Below are positions 11,359 through 53,912 of a DNA stretch of 55,200 bases, in pieces. This DNA comes from a virus. The notes below the pieces were generated by a model, which did not search any database, was not told the origin of the DNA, and worked only from the letters and a program-made list of their open reading frames with translations. The DNA lies in IMG/VR virus record IMGVR_UViG_3300031355_000002, positions 1 through 55,200 of that record, one strand, 5' to 3'. The position numbers were made by a program, and so were the translations under genes. The first letter of the stretch is position 1. Each line of letters starts with the position of its first letter.

Positions 11359-11704
11359 TGCTGTCCCTCGCTTTCAACGTGGCTGGATCGACGAACCACA
11401 GCCCTCTTTCCCTGACGACCGAAATCTTGAAGTTGACTATGACCAAGCTGAGGCTAGCCTGCTTGACCATGTACTCGATAGTGGTGGGCGTCCTTGAGAT
11501 GACTTCGAGATGTACGTCATTTGGGAGAAGCAGATGATACTTACCTAGTGTCTGCTGTAGGCCACGTGTAATCTGCGATTCTCCCATCCTCTCGTGAGTG
11601 CGCGTGATCATGGCCATCTTTCCCCATGACTGGGTTTCCCATGCCTTCAACCACGTAGCACACACAACCTCTGGAAGTACATCTACGCCGATCTGCTCAC
11701 CCAT
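11351..11704 (-). CDS. Hypothetical protein upstream of portal
   Basis: 117 residues starting MGEQIGVDVLPEVVCATWLK. A helical N-terminal half leads to a beta-rich end (HLEVISRTPTTIEYMVKQA, LVIVNFKISVVRERGLWFV). It overlaps the portal start by 8 nt and has an AAGGGG site. No family recognised. Confidence 0.7.
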   Translation of the reverse strand: MGEQIGVDVLPEVVCATWLKAWETQSWGKMAMITRTHERMGESQITRGLQQTLGKYHLLLPNDVHLEVISRTPTTIEYMVKQASLSLVIVNFKISVVRERGLWFVDPATLKARDSNG

Positions 11705-11715
11705 CGTCGATCCCC

Positions 11716-12477
11716 TTATCCGAGTACAGCTTTCACTTGACCGAGAAACTCAACGTTTGCTGCTCGACACTCCTCCAATGCTTCTGGATATGTCGTTGCT
11801 TGCTTCACACCGATTCGCCACCCACGTCGTGTGCTCAATGCGGGAGGGTGACGAAATCCATGGAATCTTGTGCTAGAAGGAACAGCAACGACTCGCCTCC
11901 CCAGCAGCGTTGCCCAGTAGGCGCCATGGTATGTTGTGGTGATGACCGTCCGTGCGCTGGCCAAGAAGTCAATCACCTGCTTAAAGTACTTCCCGACTGA
12001 CACATCCCGTGGACGTCGGTTCGTCATCTGTGGGAAGTCGTTAATGTTCAGTGAGCCCAACTGGTAATGCTCGTAACAGACAGCGTCTCTGATTGGCTCG
12101 GGGATATCATCAAACAGCGAGTCCATGCAGCTGGCGCAGGGAACCCACTTCAGTCGATGACCTGTGAAGTCACGCACACCCGCCAACGTAAAGCGCATCA
12201 TCCACGACGGCCACGAGATCTTCTGTTCGTTCATGTTGTGGCCGACACCCCAGGCAATCTTATGATCCGACTTGCCCATAGCGAGAAAGCGGAGATGCAT
12301 GAAGAGAGTCTCATGATACAGACCGCCACCTCCGACGATGAACTTCCCCTCCCTGTCTTGGCGGTCGAGGCTGCGTATATCCTTGGGCGTTGCTCCAAGC
12401 TCCGGGAAGTAGCGGCTCGGATGACACACTAAGTCACCGATGTTCTCAGTGTTGCGGACGTGGATGTTCAAGACCAT
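11716..12477 (-). CDS. Polysaccharide pyruvyl-transferase-like protein
   Basis: 253 residues. Features of the polysaccharide pyruvyl transferase superfamily are visible: a Gly-rich strand-loop (KFIVGGGGLYHETL, residues 46-58), a central AWGVGHN, and TTYHGAYWATLLGRRVVAVP (181-200), the usual signature for the nucleotide-sugar site. Family enzymes add ketal-pyruvate to exported sugars or are degenerate glycosyltransferase-fold proteins. It lies among small unknown genes between the terminase and portal blocks, so it is cargo rather than a core head gene. It might modify host surface polysaccharide or a virion glycan. The start is 3 nt after the preceding stop. Confidence 0.65.
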   Translation of the reverse strand: MVLNIHVRNTENIGDLVCHPSRYFPELGATPKDIRSLDRQDREGKFIVGGGGLYHETLFMHLRFLAMGKSDHKIAWGVGHNMNEQKISWPSWMMRFTLAGVRDFTGHRLKWVPCASCMDSLFDDIPEPIRDAVCYEHYQLGSLNINDFPQMTNRRPRDVSVGKYFKQVIDFLASARTVITTTYHGAYWATLLGRRVVAVPSSTRFHGFRHPPALSTRRGWRIGVKQATTYPEALEECRAANVEFLGQVKAVLG

Positions 12478-12479
12478 GG

Positions 12480-12887
12480 CTACCCCACCACTTCCTGGAA
12501 GTCACCACGCTGCAAGAATAGCCATTTCCCAACGTTGTAGAGTGTGTCCACGACCGGCGAGATGGCGAGCATGACCGTAGTGAAGATCCACCAATGCTCA
12601 TTCTGGAACGGCACGTTGTTCCGCAGGTAAATCCACACGCCACCGCAGATGAGGTTGACGTAGTACGGAGCAAGATACACATGGGCGCTCGGCTTCCATC
12701 CATCGAACGTCAGCCAGCGTGTGTATCCCCAATACCAGCGAGCGTTGCGCTTGTGTGGGAACACGTTGAACTCGATGACTGTTCCACCTGTCGCGGTTAC
12801 TACGATAGCATGAGCCAACTCATGCCGTATTGTGCTGAGGATCTGGTAGAGCGGATAAGCAAGGATGTGCCACAGATAGATCGACAT
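12480..12887 (-). CDS. Membrane metalloprotease-like protein (M50-type HExxH)
   Basis: 135 residues. I chose the ATG at 12887 (ATGA overlap with the upstream gene, AGGGAGG 6 nt upstream). The first hydrophobic helix carries HELAHA (His22, Glu23, His26), the zinc motif of site-2/M50 intramembrane proteases. Further hydrophobic stretches occur near residues 72-88 and 100-115, and SPVVDTLYN near 115 resembles the third-ligand NPxxD motif with Ser for Asn. Small HELAH membrane proteins are known in prokaryotes, but the short length leaves activity uncertain. Confidence 0.65.
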   Translation of the reverse strand: MSIYLWHILAYPLYQILSTIRHELAHAIVVTATGGTVIEFNVFPHKRNARWYWGYTRWLTFDGWKPSAHVYLAPYYVNLICGGVWIYLRNNVPFQNEHWWIFTTVMLAISPVVDTLYNVGKWLFLQRGDFQEVVG

Positions 12888-39330: not shown

Positions 39331-39649
39331 GCCCATGACTAGCTTGGAGGAAGCTATCCTCCGAGGTGGTCAAGCAGTGGGTGGGTTGCGGTCAGCAGAG
39401 ATGTACTTCTCGTTCCACGGGCACATCACACTCGCCTGTAGTCGATGGGAGTGTATCTGGAGATGGGATGCCGAAAAGCAAGAAATCGAAATCAAGAAGG
39501 CTGATGAAGCATCAGCTGCGCGCCTTGAAATTCATCCGTGGCCACACAGGTCAAGCGGGCTCGTTCATGGCACCTGGTACGGGAAAGACGCTTACGTCAA
39601 TACGCTACGTGAAGGGAGAGCAGCACCAATTGGCTTTGGTGGTATGTAG
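39167..39649 (+). CDS. Hypothetical protein overlapping both neighbours
   Basis: 160 residues from the ATG at 39167 (GGAGG very close upstream). MSQTKFHENFDKVMKLMMQK, RLRSAEMYFSFHGHITLACS and RWECIWRWDAEKQEIEIKKA look like real protein with genome-like codons. It overlaps the zinc-ribbon gene by 164 nt and the helicase gene by 182 nt, each in a different frame. Its last ~55 codons may be non-functional. Confidence 0.5.
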   Translation, partial: SQTKFHENFDKVMKLMMQKLRPRFAAHQFHQAMKATHHLSTSFRVDLREMEGWYEPMTSLEEAILRGGQAVGGLRSAEMYFSFHGHITLACSRWECIWRWDAEKQEIEIKKADEASAARLEIHPWPHRSSGLVHGTWYGKDAYVNTLREGRAAPIGFGGM

Positions 39650-40877
39650 GCGAGACGACTTTATGACCTGGGAGCAGGAGCTGGAGATGGAGCGTCAGCG
39701 TGAGCCATTCATCATCGACTCTGGCAGGGTAGACCTGGGAGAAGCCACTGAATTCTGCATGGGTGATGGCAAGTGCCGGTGGATCTTGACCACGTATGAT
39801 CTGATGAAGAATCCAGAGATTGGTGAGTGGGTAGAAGGCGAGCTGTTCGATATTGTCATTGCTGACGAGTCTCACATGATCAAGAGATGGAAATCATCTA
39901 GGACTAAGGCGGTGATCCGCCGCACTCGCCACATCCCTGAGCGTATCGCAATGACTGGCTCACCGATCACCAACGAGCCGCTTGACGTGTTCAGTCAGTG
40001 TCTCTTCATCGATGATGGCAAGACGTTCGGCTCTAATGAATGGGCCTTTAAGCGGAAGTACTACCTCAAGTCAGGGCCAGGGTGGTACAAGAGACGTGGA
40101 GCAAAGGACGAGATAGCTGAGAGGCTGAAGAAGATTGCCTTCTACGTTCACGAAGACGACGCAATGAAGCTGCCACCTAAGAAGTCCATCATTAAAGGCG
40201 CTCCGATGTCGAAGAGCCAGGCAAAATCATACCAACAAGTTCTCGATGAGTGGGAGATACTCATCGGAGAAGATGTTCTGGAAATAGATCAGGTCATCGT
40301 CCAGCTAGCTAAGATGAAGCAGATTGCTTCTGGGTTCATCTACGACCAGGAAGGTAAGCCACACTGGATGAAGTCCGAGAAGATGAACCTCCTCTTTGAT
40401 CTGCTAGAAGACAAAGACTACATGGGCTCCAAGCCGAAGGTGGTCATCTGGGCATCATACACAGCAGAGATAGAAAAGATCGCTGAGATAGCTCGGAAGA
40501 ATAAGATCAAGTGCGTAACCTTCAGTGGCTCCAACCGCAAGAAGAAGGAGGCAGCTCGTCGGCAGTTCAGAGACAATAAACGCACTCGACTATTCATTGG
40601 ACAAGTAGACTCGGGTGTTGGAATGAACGAGCTGATAGTCGCTGACACAGCAGTCTACTTCAGCAACTCCTTTAAAGTCGTCTCCAGACAGCAGTCAATG
40701 CGCCGCATCAGAAGGCGAGGGTCTGAGAGACACAAGCGGATCACATATTACGACCTCATCACCGAGAAATCCGTCGATAGACATGTGCTCCAATCCATCA
40801 ATAACAACATGGGATTCGCCTCTATGATCCTGAGTAAGATACGACAGTCGAAAAACGTATCTGGATTTCTTCGCTGA
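39468..40877 (+). CDS. SNF2/DEAD-like superfamily 2 helicase
   Basis: 469 residues from the ATG at 39468 (GGAG 5 nt upstream). Motif Q/0 is LMKHQLRALKF, motif I MAPGTGKT (34-41), motif Ia ALVVCRRDDF, motif II DESH (133-136), motif III MTGSPITNEP. The second RecA domain has KVVIWASYTAEIEKIAEIAR and motif VI SRQQSMRRIRRRG. This set fits a SNF2-type translocase used by phages in replication or recombination. Start choice is affected by the overlap with the preceding gene. Confidence 0.85.
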   Translation: MPKSKKSKSRRLMKHQLRALKFIRGHTGQAGSFMAPGTGKTLTSIRYVKGEQHQLALVVCRRDDFMTWEQELEMERQREPFIIDSGRVDLGEATEFCMGDGKCRWILTTYDLMKNPEIGEWVEGELFDIVIADESHMIKRWKSSRTKAVIRRTRHIPERIAMTGSPITNEPLDVFSQCLFIDDGKTFGSNEWAFKRKYYLKSGPGWYKRRGAKDEIAERLKKIAFYVHEDDAMKLPPKKSIIKGAPMSKSQAKSYQQVLDEWEILIGEDVLEIDQVIVQLAKMKQIASGFIYDQEGKPHWMKSEKMNLLFDLLEDKDYMGSKPKVVIWASYTAEIEKIAEIARKNKIKCVTFSGSNRKKKEAARRQFRDNKRTRLFIGQVDSGVGMNELIVADTAVYFSNSFKVVSRQQSMRRIRRRGSERHKRITYYDLITEKSVDRHVLQSINNNMGFASMILSKIRQSKNVSGFLR

Positions 40878-40933: not shown

Positions 40934-41977
40934 ATGGCCAAGCAGAAGAAGCTGATCCAAGTCGCTCCAGTCAAGCTCGTAAAGTTGCCGTCTCTGATAC
41001 TCGAGAATCCGTTCGAGGACCCACTCCTGCCTGAGAAAGTAACGTGGACTGCCTCTGCGTTGAAGACTTTCCGCAAGTGTCCACGCAAATACTTCTGGAA
41101 GTACATCATGCGGCTCAAGCCGCGCCGGAGAGAAGAGTCGCTGGCAATCGGCATCGTGGTCCACGAAGCGATAGGCAAGTGGTACGCAGGCCGCAAGGCT
41201 TCGATGAAAGCGATTTCCAACAAGACGGTCAAGACTCTCGAAGACGACCTCCTCAAGACCCAGGCCCTCTACGATCAGGGTGACTACGATAAGTTCTCTG
41301 CTGCGGTTGCTACCCTGCGTGGCATGCTGCGTGGATATGCAGCGAACTACAACCGGGACAGGCAGAAATGGAAGCTCGACCGTAAGAAGGTGGAGGCGAA
41401 GTTCAAGGTCGACATGGGTAACTTCTTCTTTGCGGGGAAGATCGACCTTCTGACGCTCGAGCAGAAGACCGACGTTCTGGTCGAACACAAGACCGCATCC
41501 AACATAGGCGACTCATATATCGACCGCCTTCCTCTCGACACTCAGGTCCGCGCATACATTCTCGGTGCAGAACTTGAGTTCGGAATCAAAGTCGGCAAGG
41601 TCGTCTACGACGTGATCCGGAAGTGTAAGCTGCGTCGGAAGAGTGACGAATCACCCGAGGACTTCAACGACCGCATTGCTCTCGACTATGAAAGTCGCCC
41701 GGGCTTCTACTTCTACCGCGAGCCCCTCAAGTTCAACCGCGCCTCCATCAAGAACTTCCGTTTCGAGATGCAGCAGACTAACGAAGTGTATCAGCAAATC
41801 GTCGATGGAGAAGAGCCGGAGAATCCTCGCTCGTGGTTGCCGAACGATGCTCTGTGCAACGAATACTTCAAGCTGTGTCCATTCCACTCTCTGTGTCTCG
41901 ATGGACTTTGCAAGGGTCACAATGCCCTCTACGAGCAGAAGAAAGATGAGCACGAAGAACTTGCTGATGGAGAATAG
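40934..41977 (+). CDS. Cas4/RecB-like PD-(D/E)XK nuclease with probable Fe-S cluster
   Basis: 347 residues. The fold motifs are in order: FRKCPRKYFWKY (Cys49), GIVVHEAIG (His77), FFFAGKIDLL (Asp171), LVEHKTA (Glu184, Lys186) and the QVRAY helix (Gln204). The C-terminal Cys set C308, C315, C321 and C326, with Cys49, could bind a 4Fe-4S cluster as in Cas4/AddB enzymes. It probably resects DNA ends for recombination. The GTG-free ATG follows GGGAGGG. It is next to the Sak4-like gene, supporting a recombination module. Confidence 0.85.
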   Translation: MAKQKKLIQVAPVKLVKLPSLILENPFEDPLLPEKVTWTASALKTFRKCPRKYFWKYIMRLKPRRREESLAIGIVVHEAIGKWYAGRKASMKAISNKTVKTLEDDLLKTQALYDQGDYDKFSAAVATLRGMLRGYAANYNRDRQKWKLDRKKVEAKFKVDMGNFFFAGKIDLLTLEQKTDVLVEHKTASNIGDSYIDRLPLDTQVRAYILGAELEFGIKVGKVVYDVIRKCKLRRKSDESPEDFNDRIALDYESRPGFYFYREPLKFNRASIKNFRFEMQQTNEVYQQIVDGEEPENPRSWLPNDALCNEYFKLCPFHSLCLDGLCKGHNALYEQKKDEHEELADGE

Positions 41978-42242: not shown

Positions 42243-42606
42243 CCTCTTTCCAAAACGAGAGCGTGTCCTCACCTCCGCTGAATTCTGGCACTTTGTGGAG
42301 AGCAGAGAAGACGTCAAGGTTCATGGAATGGTAGAGGCTGAAGATCCGAAAGACGACGCAGTCATCTTCGGCCTGACTGGGATCCCAGCAAGGACAAATA
42401 CTGGGTGGATGATTGTTTCGATGCACCCCACGGAAACGCTGTTTCACTCGCTAGAAACGTGGACAGAGATCTTCAACGGCGAACGAGACTTGAAGATTAT
42501 GAAACACTTTACCCGTATCGTTGGGTACTATTCTGAGCTCAATAACTGGAACATGTCGAAGATCGCCGAGTTGGCTGATCGTCGGCGCGGTCACTACGAA
42601 CTGTAA
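42229..42606 (+). CDS. Small protein with NrdD-like C-terminal tail
   Basis: 125 residues from the ATG at 42229 (GGAAGGG upstream). The body is unlike known folds to me. The end FTRIVGYYSELNNWNMSKIA, then ELADRRRGHYEL resembles the C-terminal tail of anaerobic ribonucleotide reductase (R-x-x-G-Y-x-S-x-x-x-x-W-N-x-x-K-x-A-E), but the CxxC zinc pairs and the catalytic domain are absent. Confidence 0.55.
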   Translation: MDITDLFPKRERVLTSAEFWHFVESREDVKVHGMVEAEDPKDDAVIFGLTGIPARTNTGWMIVSMHPTETLFHSLETWTEIFNGERDLKIMKHFTRIVGYYSELNNWNMSKIAELADRRRGHYEL

Positions 42607-42616
42607 GGAGGCAGAG

Positions 42617-43375
42617 GTGGCGAAGAAGAAGGCGAAGAAGAAGGGCAAGAGCCTGAAAAAGGTGAAGCCACTAGTCCTGCCGACCAAGAAGACGAAGCCG
42701 GCATCTGATATCACAGACTACATCTCGATGTTCTACGGACCCCCGGGTGTAGGGAAGACGACGTTTGTTAATGATATGGGGGACGTGCTGTTTCTCTCGA
42801 CTGACCGTGGTACGCGATTCATAGAAGCCATGAGAGAAGAGATTAGCACTGTCAGCAAACTCGAGCGAGTATTTAAGGCACTAGAAACAAAGGGAGCAGC
42901 AGACAACTACGATATGGTCTGCGTTGACCATGTCGATGACTTCTGCACTATGCTCGAAGACCACGTCCTTGACAAGTTGCGCGTCGAGTCGCTCGGAGAT
43001 GCTGGTTGGGGCAAGGGCTGGAAGATGTATCGTAAGATTATTGCCCTTTTCCTGCGCAGACTAAAGGCTCTCAACTTAGGCATCACATTTATTGCCCACG
43101 AGACAATCAAGACAGTGCGTAGCCGTGGTCAAGAACTAGAACGAACGATGCCCGCAATGAGCAAATCAGCCTGGGGGCTTATCATCCCAGTTTGTGACAT
43201 AGTGGGGTACTGCGGCTTTAAGACGATCAAGAAGGGAGGAAAACGAAAGGAGATCCGGACGGTCGAGTGCGAACCGAGGGAAGACCTCTACGCGAAAGAC
43301 CGGACGGACCGAGACCAGCCCGAGAAGGGCTGGGAACGGTTGGATGGTGCCAAGTTCGTTGAAACCTTTGAATAG
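42617..43375 (+). CDS. Sak4-like RecA-family ATPase (AAA_24), GTG start
   Basis: 252 residues from GTG 42617 (AAGGAGG 5 nt upstream). A Lys-rich tail (residues 1-28) leads to DYISMFYGPPGVGKTTF with Walker A at 41-49, Walker B YDMVCVDHVDDF (98-109) and KALNLGITFIAHETIKTVRS. This matches phage Sak4-type single-strand-annealing-associated ATPases. Such proteins aid replication-linked recombination. It is followed 11 nt later by an ssDNA-binding-like gene, a usual pairing. Confidence 0.8.
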   Translation: MAKKKAKKKGKSLKKVKPLVLPTKKTKPASDITDYISMFYGPPGVGKTTFVNDMGDVLFLSTDRGTRFIEAMREEISTVSKLERVFKALETKGAADNYDMVCVDHVDDFCTMLEDHVLDKLRVESLGDAGWGKGWKMYRKIIALFLRRLKALNLGITFIAHETIKTVRSRGQELERTMPAMSKSAWGLIIPVCDIVGYCGFKTIKKGGKRKEIRTVECEPREDLYAKDRTDRDQPEKGWERLDGAKFVETFE

Positions 43376-43386
43376 GAGGAGTACCC

Positions 43387-44637
43387 GTGGCAAAGAAGAA
43401 GTCGAAGAAGAAGTCAAAGAAGGGCAAGAAGGGCAAGAAGGGACGCAAGAGCAATAAGGGAAGTACAAAGCGCAAGAAGAAGCAGGAGACTGAGGACGAC
43501 GATGACGACGGTGAAGTCGAAGAGCACGGCAAGAGCGGAGCCGTCACCTTCGATGACATCGACGACTGGGACGATACCGAAGAGGCTCCGTCGTTCAGCG
43601 AAGTACCTGACGACAAGTACGAAGCAAAGATCGCCAGCGCAACGCTGAACCGCTCGAAGTCCTCGGGTCGTCGCCAGTGTTCGTGGGACCTCATCATCAT
43701 CAGCGGTGAGATGAAGGGTCGCCACGTCTTCAAGCACGATGGTCTCGAGGACGAGCAGCAGCGGTCCTACTTCAGGCAGGCTCTGGCCAAGCTCGGTATC
43801 GCATGGCCGAAGAAGAGCGAGCTGGCCGAGACTCTCTCTGAGCTTGAAGGAACCTTCGCTGCAATCACCGTCCGCACCAAGGGTGAGTTCCAGAACGTTT
43901 ACTTCGACCGCGCTCTCGACTCCGATGATGTCGGAGACATCGACGACCTGGACGATGATGGAGACGGAGACGGTGATGATGCTGCCGAGCTCGAGAAGGG
44001 TGACCGCGTCACCGCCGAGATCGATGGCGAGACGTATGCTGGCAAGATCATGAAGATCAAAGGCAGCAAGGCCACGGTCAAGTTCGATGACGGCGACAAG
44101 CAGACGCTGCCTCTCGACGAACTGTCCGCCGAAGACACCGACGATGACGGGGACGGGGATGACGACGGGGACGATGATGGAGACGGAGACGGGGATGACG
44201 ATGCTCCCGAACTCGAGAAGGGTAGCCGCGTAACTGCAGAGATCGACGGCGAAACCTACGCCGGCGAGATCAAGAAGGTCAAGGGCAAGAAGGCCACCGT
44301 GGAGTTCGATGACGGTGATACCCAGAAGATTGCCCTGGACGACCTCACCGCCGAAGACGATGACGGTGATGGAGACGACGATGATGGCGACGGAGACGAC
44401 GACGGGGACGACGGGGACGGTGAGGGCGTAGAGGTCGAGTTCGATGATGACGACCTCACATCGAAGGACAAGAAGAAGATCAAGAAGCTGGCGAAGAAGT
44501 ACAAGATGGACCCTGAGGACTATGACACCACAAGCGACCTGCTCGTAGAAATCGCGGAATATTGCGATATCTCGGGCACGTACAAGAAGGCGTCAAAGCT
44601 CATCAAGGAGTGCGAAGAGCACGAAGACGACGAGTAG
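43387..44637 (+). CDS. ssDNA-binding/DUF669-like protein with two SH3/Tudor-like repeats and acidic linkers, GTG start
   Basis: 416 residues from GTG 43387 (GGAGGAG upstream). Residues 1-33 are a Lys-rich tail. About 74-177 match phage DUF669-type recombination/ssDNA-binding proteins (PDDKYEAKIASATLNRSKSS, WDLIIISGEMKGRHVF, YFRQALAKLGIAWP). Two near-identical ~50-residue modules (201-250 and 276-324: LEKGDRVTAEIDGETYAGKI, ATVKFDDGDKQTLPLDEL) resemble Tudor/SH3 barrels. Asp/Gly linkers (DDDGDGDDDGDDDGDGDGDD) separate them. The end has a helical region and EHEDDE. It follows the Sak4-like gene; the acidic tail is common in SSB-like proteins. Confidence 0.7.
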   Translation: MAKKKSKKKSKKGKKGKKGRKSNKGSTKRKKKQETEDDDDDGEVEEHGKSGAVTFDDIDDWDDTEEAPSFSEVPDDKYEAKIASATLNRSKSSGRRQCSWDLIIISGEMKGRHVFKHDGLEDEQQRSYFRQALAKLGIAWPKKSELAETLSELEGTFAAITVRTKGEFQNVYFDRALDSDDVGDIDDLDDDGDGDGDDAAELEKGDRVTAEIDGETYAGKIMKIKGSKATVKFDDGDKQTLPLDELSAEDTDDDGDGDDDGDDDGDGDGDDDAPELEKGSRVTAEIDGETYAGEIKKVKGKKATVEFDDGDTQKIALDDLTAEDDDGDGDDDDGDGDDDGDDGDGEGVEVEFDDDDLTSKDKKKIKKLAKKYKMDPEDYDTTSDLLVEIAEYCDISGTYKKASKLIKECEEHEDDE

Positions 44638-44649
44638 AGCCTAAACAAT

Positions 44650-44680
44650 GGGGACTCTCGGTTCAACCCCGAGAGTCCCC
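44650..44680 (+). terminator. Strong 12-bp hairpin before the primase-helicase gene
   Basis: GGGGACTCTCGG and CCGAGAGTCCCC are perfectly complementary around the loop TTCAACC. The tail AGTCTTT is a poor U-tract, so it may be a partial terminator or an mRNA-protecting structure between the abundant ssDNA-binding protein and the helicase. Confidence 0.5.
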
Positions 44681-44696
44681 AGTCTTTGGAGCGTCG

Positions 44697-47528
44697 ATGA
44701 AAACACTCATCCAATTCATCAGGGAAACGATCGACCCAAAGGAGTACTACAAGAGCATCTTCCCAGAGATAAGTTGGGGAGGTGCAACTGAAGCTAGGGT
44801 CATCTCGCCGTGGACTGCGGAGAAAGATCCGAGCCTATCAGTAAACGGACAGACTGGAGCTTGGTACTCTTTCTCTGCCGATGATGAGTTTGGTGGAAAG
44901 TCGATAGTCTCATTCCATGCGAAATATCACGAATGCTCACAGAGTGATGCAGCAAAGCAGTTGTTCCAGCAATTCATCCATCCGACAGTTGACGAGCGGG
45001 CTATCCGTCGATGGGAACGAAGCCTCAATGGAACGCCCAGCGCGAAGAAATACCTCCGTGGCAGCAGACTAATCAGCCACAAGATACTAAAGCGATACCA
45101 GATTGGTTGGAACGGTAACCGATTCACTGTCCCAGTCAGAAATGAGTGGGGTATATGCGTGAATGTCAAGCTGTACGATCCACTAGCAAAGAAGCGCGGC
45201 CTACCCAAGATGCTCAACTATCACAAGGACGATGAGCCCAGGAAGTTTGGAACACCGCCGATGATCTTCCCGCTTCCTGTGTTGATAGGCTGCGAGGGTT
45301 TCATAGTCGTCTGTGAGGGTGAATGGGACGCGCTCGCATTGCTGTCCATCGGTATTCCGGCTGTAACGAGTACAGCGGGAAGCAAGTCGTGGCCAGATCA
45401 GTACACCCATCTATTCAAAGGGTTGGACGTTGTCATTGCATACGACAACGATAGTGCAGGGGAGAAGCACAGTAAGAAGTACGTGTTGAAGCACCTACTC
45501 AATGTTGCAAAATCAGTGAAGCAAATTAAGATTCCAAAGGTGTATGGCAAAGACGTTACCGACTGGATCCTCAACAAGAAGCTGATGCGCAAAGCTAAAT
45601 TCTGGGAGCGAGAATTCAAGAGGGCCAAACTGCTGGTGGAGAATCCTGAAGAATCACCAGACAACCCTGACGTAATAGATGTTCCATTGAACTACGCTAG
45701 CGAGGCTCAGTACTTTATGAAACGAGTGAGAGTCAATGCACTAGTGAGTGGCAAGGATACTGCACCCTATATGTTGCCCGCTAAGTTCAGAGTGACCTGC
45801 CAGCAGAACTGTGATGAGTGCAGATTAGCGGAAGAGGAATTCGTTGAGCGTACAATTGATCCAAAGACTCCACTAGTGTTGAACCTAACAGACGCGAATC
45901 AGGCATCCACTAGGAAACTAATGCTCGGGCTAGCGGGCATACAACCGAGGCCACACTGTAGTGCGAAGATAGACGTAGTCCAGACATTCAACGTTGAGCA
46001 GGTCTTGCTGATTCCGACGCTCGACAACACCAATGGTCAGTACGTGATGAGATCCGCATATTACGTAGGCCACGGTCTAGCAGCTAACCGATCATACCGA
46101 CTTGAAGGGATGACGCTTCCACATCCGAAAGATCAGCACACGACACACCTCTTTGACACTGCGCACCCACTGCAAGGTGAGATCGAGACGTTTGAGATGA
46201 GCAAAGACATCAAGAAGCAGCTCAACAGATTCAAACCTGGTAAGTTGAAGCCATTAGCGAAGCTCATGTCACTGGCAGAATGGCAATCAAGAAACATCAC
46301 GAAGATTCATGAGCGTCCTGACCTCCACGTTGCCGTGGATCTAGCGTTTCATTCGGTGAGAGCATTCAATTTCAACGGCGAGTTCATCAATCGTGGAATG
46401 CTCGACATACTCGTCCTCGGTGATACTCGGTGTGGGAAGGGCTACGTCACAGAACGACTCACACGATACTATGGCCTTGGTGACGTTGCCTCGGGAGAGA
46501 ACTGCACATTCGCCGGACTTGTTGGAGGTTTACAGCAAGTCGGGAGCAGATGGTTGGTGACTTGGGGTGTCATCCCGCTCAACAACAATCGCTTAGTGGT
46601 GATAGATGAAACGTCGTCACTCAGTGAAGAAGAGATCGGCCATATGAGTCGAGTAAGAAGCGAAGGTGTCGCAGAGATCAGCAAGATCATTAAGGAATCG
46701 ACACAGGCTAATACTCGACTCATATGGTTGAGTAATCCGCGGAGTGGTAGGCCGATCATGAGCTACAACGCAGGAGTAGAAGCCATCAAGGAACTAGTGG
46801 GAGCCAACGAAGATATCAGCCGTTTTGACTTCGCACTGACTGTAGCGACTGATGAGGTTCCAAGTGAGATCATAAACGCGCCGGCAGATAACAGCATCAA
46901 AGATGCCGACCTGTATCCAAAGGATATTTGCAGGTCACTTGTGCTCTGGGCGTGGTCGAGAGACCCTGACCAGATCGAGTTTAGCAGTGGCGCTACAAAG
47001 ATGATCATTAAGGAAGCTATAAATTTCGGCCACTCATACTCTCCAACAATACCTCTAATCCAGTCGGAGAACATTCGTATCAAGCTGGCCAAGATCTCTG
47101 CAGCCATCGCTGCAAGGCTGTTCAGCTGCGACAAAACTGGCGAGAAGCTCATCATCCGATCAACCCACGTCCGGTGCGCGTGTGAGTTTCTGAAGATGAT
47201 ATACTCCAAGGCGAGCATGAGCTATCACACATTCAGCCGATCCGCCCAGGCCATCTCCAAGATTAAGGATCCGTCAAGCATATTCGCCAATCTTGGCGCA
47301 CAGAGACGTGCAGCCATGGGTGGACTGCTTGAGATTCATCAAATCACTCCCGACAGTCTAGCTGACTTTACGGGAGATACAGTGTTGGCGAAATCGCTCA
47401 TTGGTGAGCTCGTTCGTCTGCGCTGTATATCAAGGATCGAGAAGAGCAACTGGTACTTGAAGAACGCAGCATTTAGCTCGTGGCTCCGGGACCAGATGCG
47501 AAAGGGCAGGAGGAGTAAGCATGGCTGA
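44697..47528 (+). CDS. TOPRIM primase fused to MCM-like AAA+ helicase
   Basis: 943 residues from ATG 44697. Residues ~33-75 match a DnaG/CHC2 zinc-finger-like domain by pattern (SPWTAEKDPSLSVNGQTGAW, then GGKSIVSF) but without its Cys. A TOPRIM domain follows: FIVVCEGEWDALALLSIG (Glu207) and LDVVIAYDNDSAG (Asp250, Asp252). About 340-500 contains VTCQQNCDEC and an OB-like N-terminal MCM region. The AAA+ core has Walker A LVLGDTRCGKG (573-582), VASGENCTFAGLVGGLQQ, Walker B LVVIDETSSL (633-642), sensor-1 RLIWLSNP and Arg finger EDISRFDF (Arg709). The C terminus is winged-helix-like. It should prime and unwind DNA at the fork. The identification is by motif reading only. Confidence 0.85.
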   Translation: MKTLIQFIRETIDPKEYYKSIFPEISWGGATEARVISPWTAEKDPSLSVNGQTGAWYSFSADDEFGGKSIVSFHAKYHECSQSDAAKQLFQQFIHPTVDERAIRRWERSLNGTPSAKKYLRGSRLISHKILKRYQIGWNGNRFTVPVRNEWGICVNVKLYDPLAKKRGLPKMLNYHKDDEPRKFGTPPMIFPLPVLIGCEGFIVVCEGEWDALALLSIGIPAVTSTAGSKSWPDQYTHLFKGLDVVIAYDNDSAGEKHSKKYVLKHLLNVAKSVKQIKIPKVYGKDVTDWILNKKLMRKAKFWEREFKRAKLLVENPEESPDNPDVIDVPLNYASEAQYFMKRVRVNALVSGKDTAPYMLPAKFRVTCQQNCDECRLAEEEFVERTIDPKTPLVLNLTDANQASTRKLMLGLAGIQPRPHCSAKIDVVQTFNVEQVLLIPTLDNTNGQYVMRSAYYVGHGLAANRSYRLEGMTLPHPKDQHTTHLFDTAHPLQGEIETFEMSKDIKKQLNRFKPGKLKPLAKLMSLAEWQSRNITKIHERPDLHVAVDLAFHSVRAFNFNGEFINRGMLDILVLGDTRCGKGYVTERLTRYYGLGDVASGENCTFAGLVGGLQQVGSRWLVTWGVIPLNNNRLVVIDETSSLSEEEIGHMSRVRSEGVAEISKIIKESTQANTRLIWLSNPRSGRPIMSYNAGVEAIKELVGANEDISRFDFALTVATDEVPSEIINAPADNSIKDADLYPKDICRSLVLWAWSRDPDQIEFSSGATKMIIKEAINFGHSYSPTIPLIQSENIRIKLAKISAAIAARLFSCDKTGEKLIIRSTHVRCACEFLKMIYSKASMSYHTFSRSAQAISKIKDPSSIFANLGAQRRAAMGGLLEIHQITPDSLADFTGDTVLAKSLIGELVRLRCISRIEKSNWYLKNAAFSSWLRDQMRKGRRSKHG

Positions 47529-47980: not shown

Positions 47981-48649
47981 ATGAACATTGACGACGTAGC
48001 AATGGACTCTATTGTAATGCCGGAGGGTAGTGTGATAGCGGCTATCTTCGAGCATCAGCACGACCTGACGATGAAGTACAAGGACATCGAAAAGAAGAAC
48101 GGCGCGAACTTTCCAGTGCCTCCCTGGAACATCGATGACAAGTTTGTCCAGTGGAGACTGAAGGATCTGTTCTGGCGCGTCACCGAAGAACTCGCAGAAG
48201 CACTCGACGGTGGCGGCTTCCGTGGTATGGCCAACTGGGAGAAGCGTTGGAATGATGATGCTGATGTCCGACACTTCTTCGAGGAACTAGCTGATGCGCT
48301 CCACTTCCTGGTTGAAGCATCACTAGTGGGTGGGCTCGAACCCGTAGACATTCAGGAGTACTGGGAGGCTGACATCGATGCTGGTGGGTCGACATCAAGC
48401 TCGGATATTCAGAAGAGCTGTGCCGATATCGTCTGGGCCATCGGCCTCGCAGCCAATTGCCTCAAGAACAAACCATGGAAACTGACTCAGATGCCAACCG
48501 ACAAACCGGCATTCAATCGACACATGATGGATGCATGGTGTGAATTTATCGACCTCTGGGAGGGGTTGGGCTGCTCCCAAGAATTCGTTTACAAACTCTA
48601 CTTCCGCAAGAACGCAGTGAATCAGTTCCGACAGAGGAGCAACTACTAA
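47981..48649 (+). CDS. Dimeric all-alpha dUTPase-like nucleotide pyrophosphatase
   Basis: 222 residues. Magnesium motifs are VTEELAEALD (Glu69, Glu70, Glu73) and HFFEELADALHFLVE (Glu101, Asp105), the EExxE and ExxD pattern of dimeric dUTPases (type 2). The end VYKLYFRKNAVNQFRQRSNY is also typical of them. It would hydrolyse dUTP (or a modified dNTP) to the monophosphate, supplying dUMP and keeping uracil out of DNA. Strongly linked to the flanking nucleotide genes. Confidence 0.8.
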   Translation: MNIDDVAMDSIVMPEGSVIAAIFEHQHDLTMKYKDIEKKNGANFPVPPWNIDDKFVQWRLKDLFWRVTEELAEALDGGGFRGMANWEKRWNDDADVRHFFEELADALHFLVEASLVGGLEPVDIQEYWEADIDAGGSTSSSDIQKSCADIVWAIGLAANCLKNKPWKLTQMPTDKPAFNRHMMDAWCEFIDLWEGLGCSQEFVYKLYFRKNAVNQFRQRSNY

Positions 48650-49497
48650 TGTCCTTAGAGATCCATGGCAAAGACATAACCCGAGTAGTGAATGCAGCAC
48701 TGCGCCACCACTTGGAGACTCCTCAACCAGACGCAGTGTTGAGCATAGAGACTCATATGTTCAATGTTACACTTGCTGCTGACTCCTGTGAGTATTCGTT
48801 GGACCTCGGTAAGCATGTTTGGTTGAACAAGTCAAGATGGACCAGGTTAATTAGGGAATATGTCTCTGCGGAAGATATCTGGCGGTTCCTTCGGCAGGCC
48901 ACGGAGATCTATAAGGGCACGGCGAGAAAAGGCGCAACTGCAAATATGCTCTTCAAAGACCCAGTGAGGTACGAGAAGAAGCATCGTTGGGGTGGATGCC
49001 TCATGGGCGCCACCTTCCGTGGAGAAGAAGGTAATCACCCCACCATTACCTTCTTCTCCCGGACAACATACATGGGCTACATGGGATTGCTGGATGCAGG
49101 CATAGCTCATATCATGGCGCAATACATAGCCAAAGACTTGGATGATTTGTCGGGGATCGGGTTCCGATGGCACATCACGAGTCAGCAACTTCATTGTTTC
49201 AAGACTATACCGTACATCTTCAGTCAGAAAGACCTAATAAAAGATCTGGAGAAGTACGCCAAGAAGACAGATGCCTGGTGTAAGAAACACCTCACTCCAA
49301 CGTGGAGATATATGACAAAGTGGTACAAGAAGATTCAAGAGGCATACGAAGAGCACGGCGTCAAGATGCTCAACAAAGAGAAATATGGTCCATTCCGCAG
49401 GATCAAGCGAAGGTGGCTCGAGTACAAGAGATACCTAAAGAAGAACATCCCGCCATCTTTGCTCATCTCCAACCTCGACTTTAACAAGGCGCTTTGA
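48649..49497 (+). CDS. Thymidylate-synthase-superfamily protein, divergent
   Basis: 282 residues. By eye it aligns to the thymidylate synthase core: RWGGCLMGATFRGE gives a nucleophile-position Cys117; PTITFFSRTTYMGYMGLLDA gives Arg138, and Asp149 falls 11 residues after it, where thymidylate synthase has the dUMP-reading Asn; FRWHITSQQLHCF gives His182. Spacing from Cys to Arg (21) is close to the family value (20). It may act on a cytosine or other nucleotide, or be a catalytically altered relative. The C-terminal ~70 residues are an extra basic helical region. TAATG start. Confidence 0.6.
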   Translation: MSLEIHGKDITRVVNAALRHHLETPQPDAVLSIETHMFNVTLAADSCEYSLDLGKHVWLNKSRWTRLIREYVSAEDIWRFLRQATEIYKGTARKGATANMLFKDPVRYEKKHRWGGCLMGATFRGEEGNHPTITFFSRTTYMGYMGLLDAGIAHIMAQYIAKDLDDLSGIGFRWHITSQQLHCFKTIPYIFSQKDLIKDLEKYAKKTDAWCKKHLTPTWRYMTKWYKKIQEAYEEHGVKMLNKEKYGPFRRIKRRWLEYKRYLKKNIPPSLLISNLDFNKAL

Positions 49498-49498
49498 C

Positions 49499-50035
49499 AT
49501 GAGCAAGAAAAGCAGACTCCGGAAGAAGCGGAACGAGAAGTGCAGGAAGTGCAATCTGTACAAGTCTACAGTGAATCGCTGCGTGATGGGTCGTGGGGAC
49601 ACTAACTCACCCATCATGCTGATCGGAGAGGCCCCAGGTCAAGCTGAGTCAGAGACCGGCAAACCTTTCATGGGTCGAGCGGGTAGACTTCTTAATGAGA
49701 TTCTGGTTTATATCGGAATCGACCCGTACATTACGAACTTCTGCAAGTGTCGACCTCCCGAGAATCGGACACCCGAGTTCAAAGAGCTTCGGAGATGCTT
49801 CACATACTTAGAGTCAGAGATCAAGATCATCAAGCCACGAGTCATTCTGATCATGGGCAAGACGGTAGCTAAGAAAGCGAAGTTTTCCAAGCAGCGGCTG
49901 ACAGGCAAGCCCTTCTCGTGGTATGATTCAATTGCCAGGATTACGGTACATCCTGCATATGTATTGAGGAACCGAACCAAGAAACCAATCTTAGTGGAAG
50001 CCCTAGAGTGGGCCAAGAGGGAGGCGACGAAATGA
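49499..50035 (+). CDS. Family 4 uracil-DNA glycosylase
   Basis: 178 residues. The active-site strand is LIGEAPGQAESETGKPFMGR (42-60); the HPAYVLRN motif holds His150. Cys15, Cys18, Cys84 and Cys100 have the usual spacing (16 between the last two) for a 4Fe-4S cluster. A basic tail (MSKKSRLRKKRNEK) starts it. It removes uracil from DNA, arguing against uracil-substituted phage DNA. Confidence 0.85.
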   Translation: MSKKSRLRKKRNEKCRKCNLYKSTVNRCVMGRGDTNSPIMLIGEAPGQAESETGKPFMGRAGRLLNEILVYIGIDPYITNFCKCRPPENRTPEFKELRRCFTYLESEIKIIKPRVILIMGKTVAKKAKFSKQRLTGKPFSWYDSIARITVHPAYVLRNRTKKPILVEALEWAKREATK

Positions 50036-50802
50036 GGATCTACACGAATGCACTCGAGGCGGTCAAAGAAGTCGAGCGTGACCTGTGGGAGATGGGGATC
50101 AGCGTTCATCCTCAGACGATGCAAGACAAAGACGTAGCCGACGATGAAGACTACGAGACGAAAGAAGTCAGGGGTTATGGCTTCCAGATTGTTGACGCTG
50201 CCTGGGACAAAGTTGTAGAGAACGCAGTCATCGAGCATATCCTTCCCAGAGAACAGTGGGAAGCAGTTAACGAATACATCTCTTTGGAGTACAAAGACCG
50301 CATCGGTACCGTCCAGCTGAACCCAGGTGGGTCATGGAAGGCACGCTCACAGATATGGAACGAGTTCATGCACGATGGGAAGTTTGCATATACCTATTCT
50401 GAGCGCATGGCTCCACAACTCTCTCGCATCATCAAAGAGCTGAAAGAACGGCCAGGTACGCGACAGGCCATCATAAACATCCATTCTAACATTCGTGGAT
50501 GCTGCGAGCCGGAATCGAGCGTGACGATCTGCGCGGATGCAGACCTCAATAATATGGGAGGACATGCACGAATTCCGTGCTCGATGTATTACCAGCTTAT
50601 GATTCGTGAGAATAAGCTAGACCTCATCTACACAATGCGTTCGTGTGATTTCCTGGTCCACTTCCCGGTAGACATCATGCTGGCTATGAGGCTGCAGACC
50701 TATGTGGCGAAGTGGCTCAGTCTTGGGGTGGGGTTATTCACCTATTTCACCGGTTCGCTTCACGCATACGTCAAGGACATGAGGGTGCGTGGCATCTTCT
50801 AA
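50032..50802 (+). CDS. Thymidylate synthase/dCMP hydroxymethylase-like protein
   Basis: 256 residues from ATG 50032 (ATGA overlap; GGGAGG upstream). Core motifs: PGTRQAIINI with Arg144, RIPCSMYYQLMI with catalytic Cys183, IYTMRSCDFLVHFPVDIMLA with Arg203, Asp206 and Asp214, and TGSLHAYVKD with His244. Asp214 stands where dUMP-specific thymidylate synthases have Asn (177 in E. coli); the Asp form is the mark of dCMP hydroxymethylases (T4 gp42). So the likely substrate is dCMP, giving 5-methyl- or 5-hydroxymethyl-dCMP. Confidence 0.75.
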   Translation: MRIYTNALEAVKEVERDLWEMGISVHPQTMQDKDVADDEDYETKEVRGYGFQIVDAAWDKVVENAVIEHILPREQWEAVNEYISLEYKDRIGTVQLNPGGSWKARSQIWNEFMHDGKFAYTYSERMAPQLSRIIKELKERPGTRQAIINIHSNIRGCCEPESSVTICADADLNNMGGHARIPCSMYYQLMIRENKLDLIYTMRSCDFLVHFPVDIMLAMRLQTYVAKWLSLGVGLFTYFTGSLHAYVKDMRVRGIF

Positions 50803-51539: not shown

Positions 51540-51945
51540 AGAGCAGATTCACATCACCACAGCCAAGATGTGGGCATTAAGATCTGTATGTAAGCGACTG
51601 AAGGTCGGTGCAGTCATTACTGACCTCTCTATGCGCCGCGTCCTTGCTGTGGGGTACAATGGTCCAGCTAGCGGGCTAGACCATGAGCGGTGCAATACCG
51701 AGGAAGGTAACTGTGGCTGCCTCCACGCAGAGTGCAATGCAATTGCGCGAGTTGACAATACGCTTCCTGGCAAGATAATATTCGTGACCATCTCTCCGTG
51801 TGTGATGTGTGCTCAGATGATCATCCAAGCCGGGATTACCAAGGTCTACTACGTGGATGAGTACAGGGATAGGGAAGGGCTATGGCTACTAGAGCGATGT
51901 CACGTCGAAGTCGAAAGAATACCAGAACGTCTGGTCCTAACCTAA
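51523..51945 (+). CDS. dCMP deaminase
   Basis: 140 residues. Zinc motifs: CLHAECNAI (His68, Glu70) and ISPCVMCAQMI (Cys93, Cys96). VGYNGPASGLDHERC is typical of ComEB/dCMP deaminases. It converts dCMP to dUMP, feeding thymidylate or drawing down dCMP. Its last 64 nt overlap the polymerase gene. Confidence 0.88.
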   Translation: MSRPTREQIHITTAKMWALRSVCKRLKVGAVITDLSMRRVLAVGYNGPASGLDHERCNTEEGNCGCLHAECNAIARVDNTLPGKIIFVTISPCVMCAQMIIQAGITKVYYVDEYRDREGLWLLERCHVEVERIPERLVLT

Positions 51946-53912
51946 GTGGCAAATACGTTGCTCTTGACGTTGAGACGACGGGGCTTGACCCATACCATGG
52001 AGCCAGGATATTCTGCTGGGCCTACTACACCGAGAAGGGTGAGTGGGGGTTCATGTTCAAGACCCCGCGGAACCTGGCATGGATTGAGCGTCTACTCAAC
52101 GATCCCGACAAGACAGTCATCTTCCACAACGCCAAGTTTGACCTCAAGATGTTCAGCTTCGAAGGCATCAACATATACTCGCTGAAGTGTCGCGTTGAGT
52201 GTACCCTTATCATGTCCAAGCTATGGGATGAGAATGGCCAGCACAACCTCCGCTATCTGTCGATACGCTATCTTGACAGAGACACCACAGACAAAGACGA
52301 AGTCGAAGGCTGGTGCAAGAGGAACAAGCGCAGGTTCGTCAAAGAGAAGGGCCGAGAGCCCAACTTCAAAGACGCGCCGAAGAAGATGGTGAAGCGCAGG
52401 TGTGTGTGGGATGTGGAGTCAACACTCAAGCTCTACGCCTTCCTGAAGCCTCGAATCAACAAGACCTGTGCATCACTGTATGAAACCGAAAGGCAGCTCA
52501 TTTTCGTCACCATCGACATGGAAAACACCGGTGTGATGGTTGACATTACGAGAGCCAAGAAGCTCAGGCGAAAAGCTCTCGTAGACCTCAGGAAGATCCA
52601 CGATGACCTCAACCGTATGATCTGCCCGCTGACGGTTCAAAAGAAAAAGAAGGGTGAGTACGTCGAAGTAACCATAGACGACTTCAACCCAAACAGCAGT
52701 TCCATACAGCTTCCCGCTGCGTTCAACAAAGTTGGCATTGAGCTCAAGTACAAAACGAAACCCAAGAAGGGTAGGAAGGGTGGATCGAAGACGGGAGGCG
52801 GGAACTGGTCGTTCGATGAGTATGCCATGGTTCGATACGTATCCAAACCACTGGCGTCCATCATACGTGACTCTGGAGAAGAGGGCTGGGAAACTGATCG
52901 ATGGTACAAAGCTCTTAAGACAGCCATCAAGAAACACTCGCTTAAGAAGCGAGAGCTTCTCCCTCCACTCATCCTCAAGTATCGTGAACTGTCCAAGATG
53001 GTCAGCACGTACTACGACCACATCATAGATGACGCAGTAAAAGTGCACAAGACACCGAGTGGCCGCGAGATCGGGGTGCTGCACTGCAACTTCAATCAGA
53101 GCGAGGCGATGACGGGTCGCTTCAGTTGCAGCAAGCCAAACCTCCAGAACATCCCACGTATCCTCGGTCCGCGTGAGTGCTTCATCCCGAGAGTCGGTCG
53201 TAAGAACTGGCACCTCGACTATGCTCAAGTTGAGATGCGTATGTTCTGCCACTTCTCGAAGGACAAGAAGATGGCAGCTGCAATCGATAAGGATATCCAT
53301 CTCGCTGTCGCTTGCGAGATATACGACAAGGCCGAGAAGAAGATATCTAAGGAACAGCGGAAGCGAGCTAAGGGTGTTAACTTCGGCATCATCTATGGGT
53401 CTGGTGCAGCAACGATGTCTGAGACGCTCACCAAGAAGGGCCTTCCGACTTCGAAGATGGAAGCAGCAACGCTGGTTGCGAGCTACCACCGCAAGTTCCC
53501 GTCTGTAAGACAGATAACAAATGAGTTTAAGGTGCAGCTGCATAGAGATGGATATGTACCCAATCCATTCGGTCGTCGATATCACGTCCCGACCAAGGTC
53601 GGATACAAGCTACTCAACTACATGTGCCAGGGGACATCAGCAGATATCATGAAGAAAGCAATGGTAGAGGCTTGGCTCTGGCTTAGGGAAAACGGGTTCA
53701 AGACTAAAATCATAATGACAGTACACGATGAGATAGTGTATGAGGTCCCCCCAGCTGAGGCGAAGAAAGTGATTCCCAAGCTACTTGAGATCATGGAAGA
53801 TCTAAAGGGATTCTTCGTACCAATCACGGTCGAAGCTGAGGTTGCACCGAAGCGTTGGAGTGCGAAGAAAAAACCTGAAGAAGTAGGCTGCAAGTGGGTG
53901 AAGAATGCCTAA
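51882..53912 (+). CDS. Family A DNA polymerase with 3'-5' exonuclease
   Basis: 676 residues from ATG 51882 (GGGAAGGG upstream). Exo I is LDVETTG (Asp29, Glu31), exo II FHNAKFDLKM (81-90), exo III near VWDVES (Asp177). Polymerase motif A is HLDYAQVEMRMF (Asp446), motif B KRAKGVNFGIIYG (494-506; Phe501 at the sugar-discrimination site) and motif C TVHDEIVYEV (His615-Asp616-Glu617). A basic Gly-rich insertion (KTKPKKGRKGGSKTGGGNWS) lies near 291-310. This is the replicative polymerase of the phage. Confidence 0.92.
   Translation: MATRAMSRRSRKNTRTSGPNLSGKYVALDVETTGLDPYHGARIFCWAYYTEKGEWGFMFKTPRNLAWIERLLNDPDKTVIFHNAKFDLKMFSFEGINIYSLKCRVECTLIMSKLWDENGQHNLRYLSIRYLDRDTTDKDEVEGWCKRNKRRFVKEKGREPNFKDAPKKMVKRRCVWDVESTLKLYAFLKPRINKTCASLYETERQLIFVTIDMENTGVMVDITRAKKLRRKALVDLRKIHDDLNRMICPLTVQKKKKGEYVEVTIDDFNPNSSSIQLPAAFNKVGIELKYKTKPKKGRKGGSKTGGGNWSFDEYAMVRYVSKPLASIIRDSGEEGWETDRWYKALKTAIKKHSLKKRELLPPLILKYRELSKMVSTYYDHIIDDAVKVHKTPSGREIGVLHCNFNQSEAMTGRFSCSKPNLQNIPRILGPRECFIPRVGRKNWHLDYAQVEMRMFCHFSKDKKMAAAIDKDIHLAVACEIYDKAEKKISKEQRKRAKGVNFGIIYGSGAATMSETLTKKGLPTSKMEAATLVASYHRKFPSVRQITNEFKVQLHRDGYVPNPFGRRYHVPTKVGYKLLNYMCQGTSADIMKKAMVEAWLWLRENGFKTKIIMTVHDEIVYEVPPAEAKKVIPKLLEIMEDLKGFFVPITVEAEVAPKRWSAKKKPEEVGCKWVKNA

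Follow-up and report, generated by a model that had tools for sequence, protein, structure and literature searches.

A DnaG-type TOPRIM primase fused to an MCM-type helicase in a phage genome, and the probable exchange of primases on the same helicase half

Bacterial primases pair with DnaB helicases, and eukaryotic primases pair with MCM helicases. The two activities can also reside in one chain, and passages of PMC12593628 call T7 gp4 unique in this respect. According to sections of PMC5862659, some bacterial mobile elements encode archaeo-eukaryotic primases (AEPs) fused to helicases of the MCM family, and MCM helicases of the bacterial realm were previously known only in phages. BcMCM, the published AEP-MCM fusion, is described in excerpts of PMC4538821 as a 3'-5' helicase with an ATPase that is stimulated by single-stranded DNA. 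Here we describe a gene in a virus record (IMGVR_UViG_3300031355_000002, hereafter G000), the analysed stretch of which, 55,200 nucleotides long, is called the window. The gene encodes a primase of the bacterial DnaG type, with a TOPRIM domain, followed by an MCM-type helicase. No description of a TOPRIM-MCM protein was found in the accessible parts of the open-access full-text literature, a survey that did not cover subscription literature. Within the portions available, the genome papers of the relatives API480, vB_BboS-125 and Krampus mention a primase and not MCM, a term search of the Youna2 paper returned neither, and PMC7581432, PMC3890496 and PMC2974647 deal with other primases and helicases.

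The gene is a single open reading frame (ORF) of 943 amino acids on the plus strand, with an ATG at 44697 and a stop codon that ends at 47528. An earlier note, made from the letters of the sequence, had placed TOPRIM and AAA+ motifs in this ORF, and the coordinates and every motif that it quoted are present: VVCEGEWDAL (E209), AYDNDSAG (D250, D252), GDTRCGKG (residues 575-582), VVIDE (D637, E638), WLSNP (N680) and EDISRFD (R709). In Pfam, Toprim_2 (PF13155) matches residues 204-289 (E 3.9e-9, over the curated cut-off) and MCM (PF00493) matches residues 535-717 (E 2.6e-6, 27.2 bits against a cut-off of 23.3). The top match in PHROGs is phrog_18685 (2.5e-71, residues 326-850), a family without an assigned function in version 4; the helicase half is also matched by phrog_10371 (DNA helicase), and DNA primase families, including phrog_47 and phrog_239, match inside the first 311 residues. 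A sequence search of the PDB with the protein alone finds MCM2 (1.6e-6) and Aquifex aeolicus DnaG (1.4e-4), and the same search with a family profile of 69 relatives finds DnaG 2au3 (4.4e-27), MCM2 (2.7e-10) and the T7 gp4 primase 1nui (2.7e-9). An AlphaFold2 model of the full chain, calculated from the 69-row alignment, has a mean pLDDT (predicted local distance difference test) of 92.7 and a pTM (predicted template modelling score) of 0.69, and a model of residues 322-943 alone has values of 91.7 and 0.86. Because the profiles, the conserved catalytic residues and the confident model concur, the protein is identified as a DnaG-type TOPRIM primase (residues 1 to about 310) and a near-complete MCM helicase in one chain. 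The TOPRIM similarity, proposed before any profile had been run, is real.

Dozens of isolated phages and many metagenomic viruses share the architecture. The helicase half has matches at E <= 0.1 in 52 of 50,697 phage records; of these 52, two are a haloarchaeal virus with its own MCM (L011) and two the phage vB_BboS-125. For the full chain, 45 phage records contain one site covering at least 80% of the whole protein. The hosts of these high-coverage relatives include Microbacterium, Arthrobacter, Bacillus, Weizmannia and Paenibacillus. When viral contigs were scanned with a degenerate pattern, 198 relatives came up and the best 80 were retained; a second scan gave 415, from which 75 loci were taken; a scan of genomes, one per species over 84,980 species, added nine loci (L165-L173), of which L165 is of the TOPRIM type, L166-L171 are of the AEP type, L172 runs off the end of its contig and L173, a match of 30 residues, was left unused. 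Scans with single proteins (the window protein on viral contigs, and that of the Bacillus velezensis plasmid p3 on genome contigs) gave no matches, whereas alignment-based scans did. The relatives are annotated as 'DNA primase/helicase', 'DNA primase', 'DNA primase small subunit' or 'DNA directed DNA polymerase'. The rarity that the earlier note attached to a primase and a helicase in one chain does not hold: TOPRIM-MCM proteins are not rare among phages, and AEP-type primase-MCM fusions had already been published. We also give next to no credence to the idea that the fusion arose by chimeric assembly or by chance read-through, since the 45 high-coverage phage records and the same domain order on many separate contigs speak against it, and nothing was found in its favour except the broken frame of one relative, L016. 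In that locus (9998-12834) the frame is interrupted within the helicase half, which leaves two ORFs, through an error or as a pseudogene.

The assignment of the AAA+ part to MCM, as the earlier note had it, is supported by both the profile match and structure comparison. The best Foldseek matches of the model in the PDB, among the matches listed, are MCM chains. VIA-align superposes model residues 325-849 on SsoMCM (6mii_E) with Z 30.7 and a root-mean-square deviation of 5.9 over 461 residues, and the helicase-only model with Z 30.4 and a deviation of 6.1 over 450 residues; the alignment extends over the AAA+ domain as well as the N-terminal collar. Residue counts were made on 69 TOPRIM-MCM sequences (the window protein and 68 full or near-full loci chosen by hand, with AEP and helicase-only rows excluded). 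K581, E638, N680 and R709 are each found in 69 of 69 rows, D637 is found in 60 and is otherwise Glu, and the four collar cysteines of a predicted zinc site are kept in 67 (C368), 68 (C372), 67 (C375) and 60 rows (C421). Two strand pairs of the model, 610-615/618-623 between Walker A and Walker B and 658-662/666-670 before sensor 1, lie where one would expect the MCM hairpins that we take to be the helix-2 insert and the pre-sensor-1 hairpin, as judged from the positions of the strands. That the AAA+ part belongs to another clade, such as DnaB of superfamily 4 (SF4), superfamily 3 (SF3) or other AAA+ proteins, and merely resembles MCM is very improbable: sequence identity to solved MCMs is only about 15% and the Walker A motif is a variant, but MCM passes its cut-off, Z is about 30, and the Pfam scan of the protein at E <= 1 contains no other helicase family. 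SF3 and other AAA+ clades are absent from Pfam at E <= 1 and from the 50 structure matches listed, no SF3-specific profile having been searched. A DnaB/SF4 identity was rejected, since DnaB_C matches none of nine records (the window and eight complete records of relatives, namely seven phages and one plasmid) and the control was positive in 14 of 14 genomes. In a tree, the window protein is set apart from four archaeal MCMs by a long branch with support of 100/100.

On the SsoMCM side, the alignments of both models begin at about residue 103. Because the match starts there, the model indicates that this N-terminal helical subdomain is missing and that the primase occupies its place.

The same helicase half also occurs with another primase. 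The proteins of vB_BboS-125 (P0009) and of plasmid p3 (P0010) align with the window protein only from residue 322 or 337 onward, P0009 with 27% identity over 657 amino acids (E 3e-69, from residue 322), and DNA_primase_S is found ahead of their helicases (3.9e-10 and 3.4e-10, respectively). Conversely, PF01896 has no match in G000, and the window protein is not hit by an AEP profile and scores 269 bits with a TOPRIM profile. After 50 near-copies were dropped from 167, 117 helicase halves remained, of which 83 carry TOPRIM, 28 AEP and six neither. Among the six, L062, L121 and L164 are cut at a contig end, and L082 (8777-10636), L152 (3886-5718) and L154 (5974-7842) are complete helicase-only ORFs of 610-622 amino acids that start at the module boundary; primase profiles matched nothing in the available flanks of L082, L083, L152 and L154. 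The joint between primase and helicase is identical in every pair compared (window residues 314-337). Since TOPRIM precedes this helicase half in most relatives and AEP in others, with the same joint, primases have been exchanged on the MCM chassis at least once and probably twice or more. The clearest hybrid between a TOPRIM-type helicase and an AEP primase is L127: over 529 columns its helicase has 41.8% identity to the one of L050 (TOPRIM), and its primase half aligns with the AEP relatives L128, L144 and P0010. Maximum-likelihood trees contain two changes between TOPRIM and AEP both on the 117 rows and on 66 of them, a subset made by removing L008, L082, L165 and all rows that lack a primase and by thinning the remainder by hand. 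In a rooted tree of the AAA+ core (41 rows), L127 groups with the TOPRIM proteins L050 and L061 (96/89), and the AEP rows form one group in 0% of 200 bootstrap trees.

Genomic context is that of a replication module. The gene order is a phrog_62 helicase, a nuclease, a Sak4-like protein, a protein like single-stranded DNA-binding protein (SSB), the primase-helicase, nucleotide-metabolism genes and then PolA, and a comparable order is annotated in Hiddenleaf, Wollypog, BSP7 and Youna2. In the nine records, the MCM profile (E <= 0.01) matches the same gene in all nine, over the cut-off in seven, with a weak second match in one; seven have Toprim_2 and the other two have AEP. Neither the window nor the records of relatives thus offer a competing replicative helicase of the DnaB type. 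The simplest reading, because of the module, the missing DnaB_C and the MCM match at this gene, is that of a replicative primase-helicase.

Domain make-up, family membership of both halves, catalytic conservation, context and primase exchange were all computed. We think it quite likely that the protein is a phage replicative primase-helicase whose helicase half is a conserved chassis for exchanged TOPRIM and AEP primases. We would give about even chances to the more specific proposal that TOPRIM and AEP have been swapped at one joint more than once, each time standing on the leading N-terminal tier where MCM has subdomain A, in a family where the window clade has a Walker A free of Ser/Thr and a subset of that clade a zinc-free primase. 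MCM moves with its N-terminal tier first. We infer a hexamer, its polarity, priming and use at the fork as follows: six copies would probably form an MCM-type ring around one strand and move 3'-to-5', each copy bearing, where subdomain A would be, a DnaG-type primase on the N-terminal tier. With this tier leading, the primase would encounter the displaced strand at the fork front and could place RNA primers on it for the family A polymerase.

Several points weigh against this proposal. The pTM of the full-chain model makes the position of the primase relative to the helicase uncertain. The completeness of the G000 record is not stated, and another helicase could lie outside it; in the Microbacterium and Arthrobacter relatives, the replication module also contains genes for DnaE-like polymerases. 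When the full helicase module of the 66-row subset is used, a single AEP clade is not rejected (p = 0.33 in the approximately unbiased test). For the window member in particular, the weakest steps of the mechanism would be priming without zinc ligands and ATP hydrolysis without the Walker A Ser/Thr, since Gly582, present in its whole clade, may weaken or alter hydrolysis. T7 gp4 without its zinc domain, and likewise Twinkle, reportedly lack template-directed priming.

In the primase half, DnaG chains 2au3 and 1dd9 are matched over family-profile positions 4-134 and 135-295. The zinc ribbon Zn_ribbon_DnaG (PF01807, CHC2) scores 15.5 bits on the window protein, under the cut-off of 24.9, and S37, T40 and S58 replace the Cys, His and Cys of its ligand set. 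At the first Cys position, the 69 rows have Cys in 61, Ser in five and a gap in three. The full set is missing in the window protein and in L012, L013, L014, L015 and L016; L017 and L022 belong to the same larger clade and retain it. These losses from a set that most members keep, together with the existence of complete helicase-half-only ORFs, are what one would cite for a Twinkle-like decay, in which the MCM-type helicase stays active, the TOPRIM half has lost priming, and primers come from the host or by another route. We consider this possible but rather unlikely, because TOPRIM residues E209 and D250 (69/69) and D252 (68/69) are conserved with the zinc-less window protein, L012, L013 and L014 among the rows, and the strands of the ribbon remain in the model.

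The motif GDTRCGKG, listed in the earlier note as part of the AAA+ core, is indeed present, but it is not a canonical Walker A, since Gly stands at the last position instead of Ser/Thr. Here the 69 rows have Ser in 52, Thr in nine and Gly in eight, and the eight Gly rows form with L015 and L082 a single ten-row clade (support 99*) in the helicase tree. The Gly-type Walker A occurs in the window gene and in the loci L012-L017, L022, L082, L157 and L165, and their active sites are otherwise intact. This clade, and the fact that the phages also encode a second helicase of the phrog_62 type, would suit a ring that acts as a loader, pump or regulator rather than as the fork helicase, the Walker A loss marking a switch-like ATPase. 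We regard this as improbable: K581, E638, N680 and R709 are invariant, the second helicase is annotated in relatives as DEAD/DEAH or UvsW-like, and no DnaB_C is found in the nine records. The replicative primase-helicase remains our preferred reading. The Walker A Gly and the missing zinc ligands nevertheless make the window protein one of the less typical members, and what its relatives do is no basis for taking it to be active; for the same two reasons, the label of a 'self-contained primosome' given to it earlier is least certain for this member.

The coordinates of the domains, motifs and neighbouring genes are given in Table 1. The C-terminal part of the model has the order helix-helix-helix-strand-strand, and the same part of the relative L082 weakly matches TrmB and HTH_24; these last 90 or so residues, in winged-helix order, are scarcely covered by structure comparison.

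Table 1. Features of the primase-helicase gene and its surroundings in the window
Feature	Coordinates	Strand	Remarks
TOPRIM primase-MCM helicase fusion	44697..47528	+	943 aa; ORF, Pfam, family alignment, model
CHC2-type zinc-ribbon remnant	44790..44885	+	residues 32-63; strands retained in model, Cys/His ligand set gone
DnaG-type RNA-polymerase basal domain	44994..45296	+	residues ~100-200; DnaG-chain profile matches, phrog_47/239
TOPRIM domain	45303..45563	+	residues 203-289; E209, D250, D252
MCM N-terminal collar	45672..46196	+	residues ~326-500; oligonucleotide/oligosaccharide-binding (OB) fold, predicted four-Cys zinc site C368, C372, C375, C421
MCM-type AAA+ domain	46197..47222	+	residues ~501-842; profile and structure matches
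Walker A GDTRCGKG	46419..46442	+	Gly where Ser/Thr is usual
Walker B strand with D637/E638	46593..46610	+	residues 633-638; 69-row alignment
Sensor-1 Asn N680	46734..46736	+	69-row alignment
Arginine finger of SRFD, R709	46821..46823	+	69-row alignment
C-terminal winged-helix-like part	47271..47462	+	residues ~859-922; model element order; weak matches in relative L082
SSB-like/DUF669 protein, two Tudor-like repeats	43387..44637	+	Pfam, PHROGs
Sak4-like annealing/RecA-type ATPase	42521..43375	+	Pfam, PHROGs
PD-(D/E)XK exonuclease	40934..41977	+	Pfam, PHROGs
DNA helicase, phrog_62	39366..40877	+	relatives annotated DEAD/DEAH or UvsW-like; presumed accessory
Family A DNA polymerase with 3'-5' exonuclease	51882..53912	+	Pfam, PHROGs
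Perfect 13-bp hairpin	44649..44681	+	ends 15 nt before primase-helicase ATG

The stretch that folds into the hairpin upstream of the gene has an energy of -33.8 kcal/mol (z -5.48). In L022, a hairpin of 14 bp lies at nearly the same distance, and most relatives have none; a role as a family feature was rejected, since arms of at least 9 occur before 3 of 163 relatives (near-copies included) and in 10 of 1630 random stretches. The SSB-like protein has eukaryote-like domains, with matches to Chromo_MORC2_6th in two stretches (5.8e-9), as well as very acidic stretches. Downstream of the primase-helicase, a dUTPase_2-like protein, a family 4 uracil-DNA glycosylase and a divergent thymidylate synthase (47981-50802) lie near one another and make up a uracil-exclusion set beside the replication genes. 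Queuosine-type genes (QueC/D/E, FolE) lie next to the primase-helicase in BSP7 and Youna2 (L003, L007), and L154 has an ORF that looks QueC-like by eye; these genes of relatives point to 7-deazaguanine modification of DNA.

In viruses of bacteria, then, a bacterial-type primase and an archaeal/eukaryotic-type helicase are found in one chain, with sister proteins that carry a eukaryotic-type primase. The family offers a natural test of three questions: which contacts between helicase and primase matter, how a primase mounted on the ring's front tier gets to the lagging strand when the ring moves 3'-5', and whether the lineages of primases and helicases co-evolve. In addition, the MCM identification corrects many entries labelled merely 'DNA primase', and the gene shows that replication machines are assembled from interchangeable parts.

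Each of the described systems shares a part of this architecture. With archaeal and eukaryotic MCMs, the protein has in common the OB collar with its four-Cys site, the AAA+ domain with two inserted hairpins and the SRFD finger; it differs in that subdomain A is replaced by the primase and, in the window clade, in the Walker A Gly. With bacterial DnaG, it shares the zinc-ribbon fold, the basal domain and TOPRIM, whereas an MCM collar follows, no DnaB-binding C-terminal domain was identified, and the zinc-ligand set of the window member is gone. In T7 gp4 and Twinkle, too, a ring helicase is preceded in the same chain by a DnaG-type TOPRIM primase, but their helicase is a RecA-type DnaB and that of the window an MCM-type AAA+; the expected polarity of the two is opposite. 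The closest counterparts are the AEP-MCM proteins of the BcMCM type, which we take, judging by the published description of BcMCM, to include P0009, P0010 and most of L092-L126. They belong to phage or prophage replication modules, have the same order of primase and then MCM, and have, in the AEP-MCM relatives compared, a helicase half that is homologous over the OB collar, the AAA+ domain and the C-terminal part; they differ in that their primase is of the archaeo-eukaryotic superfamily and not of the TOPRIM type.

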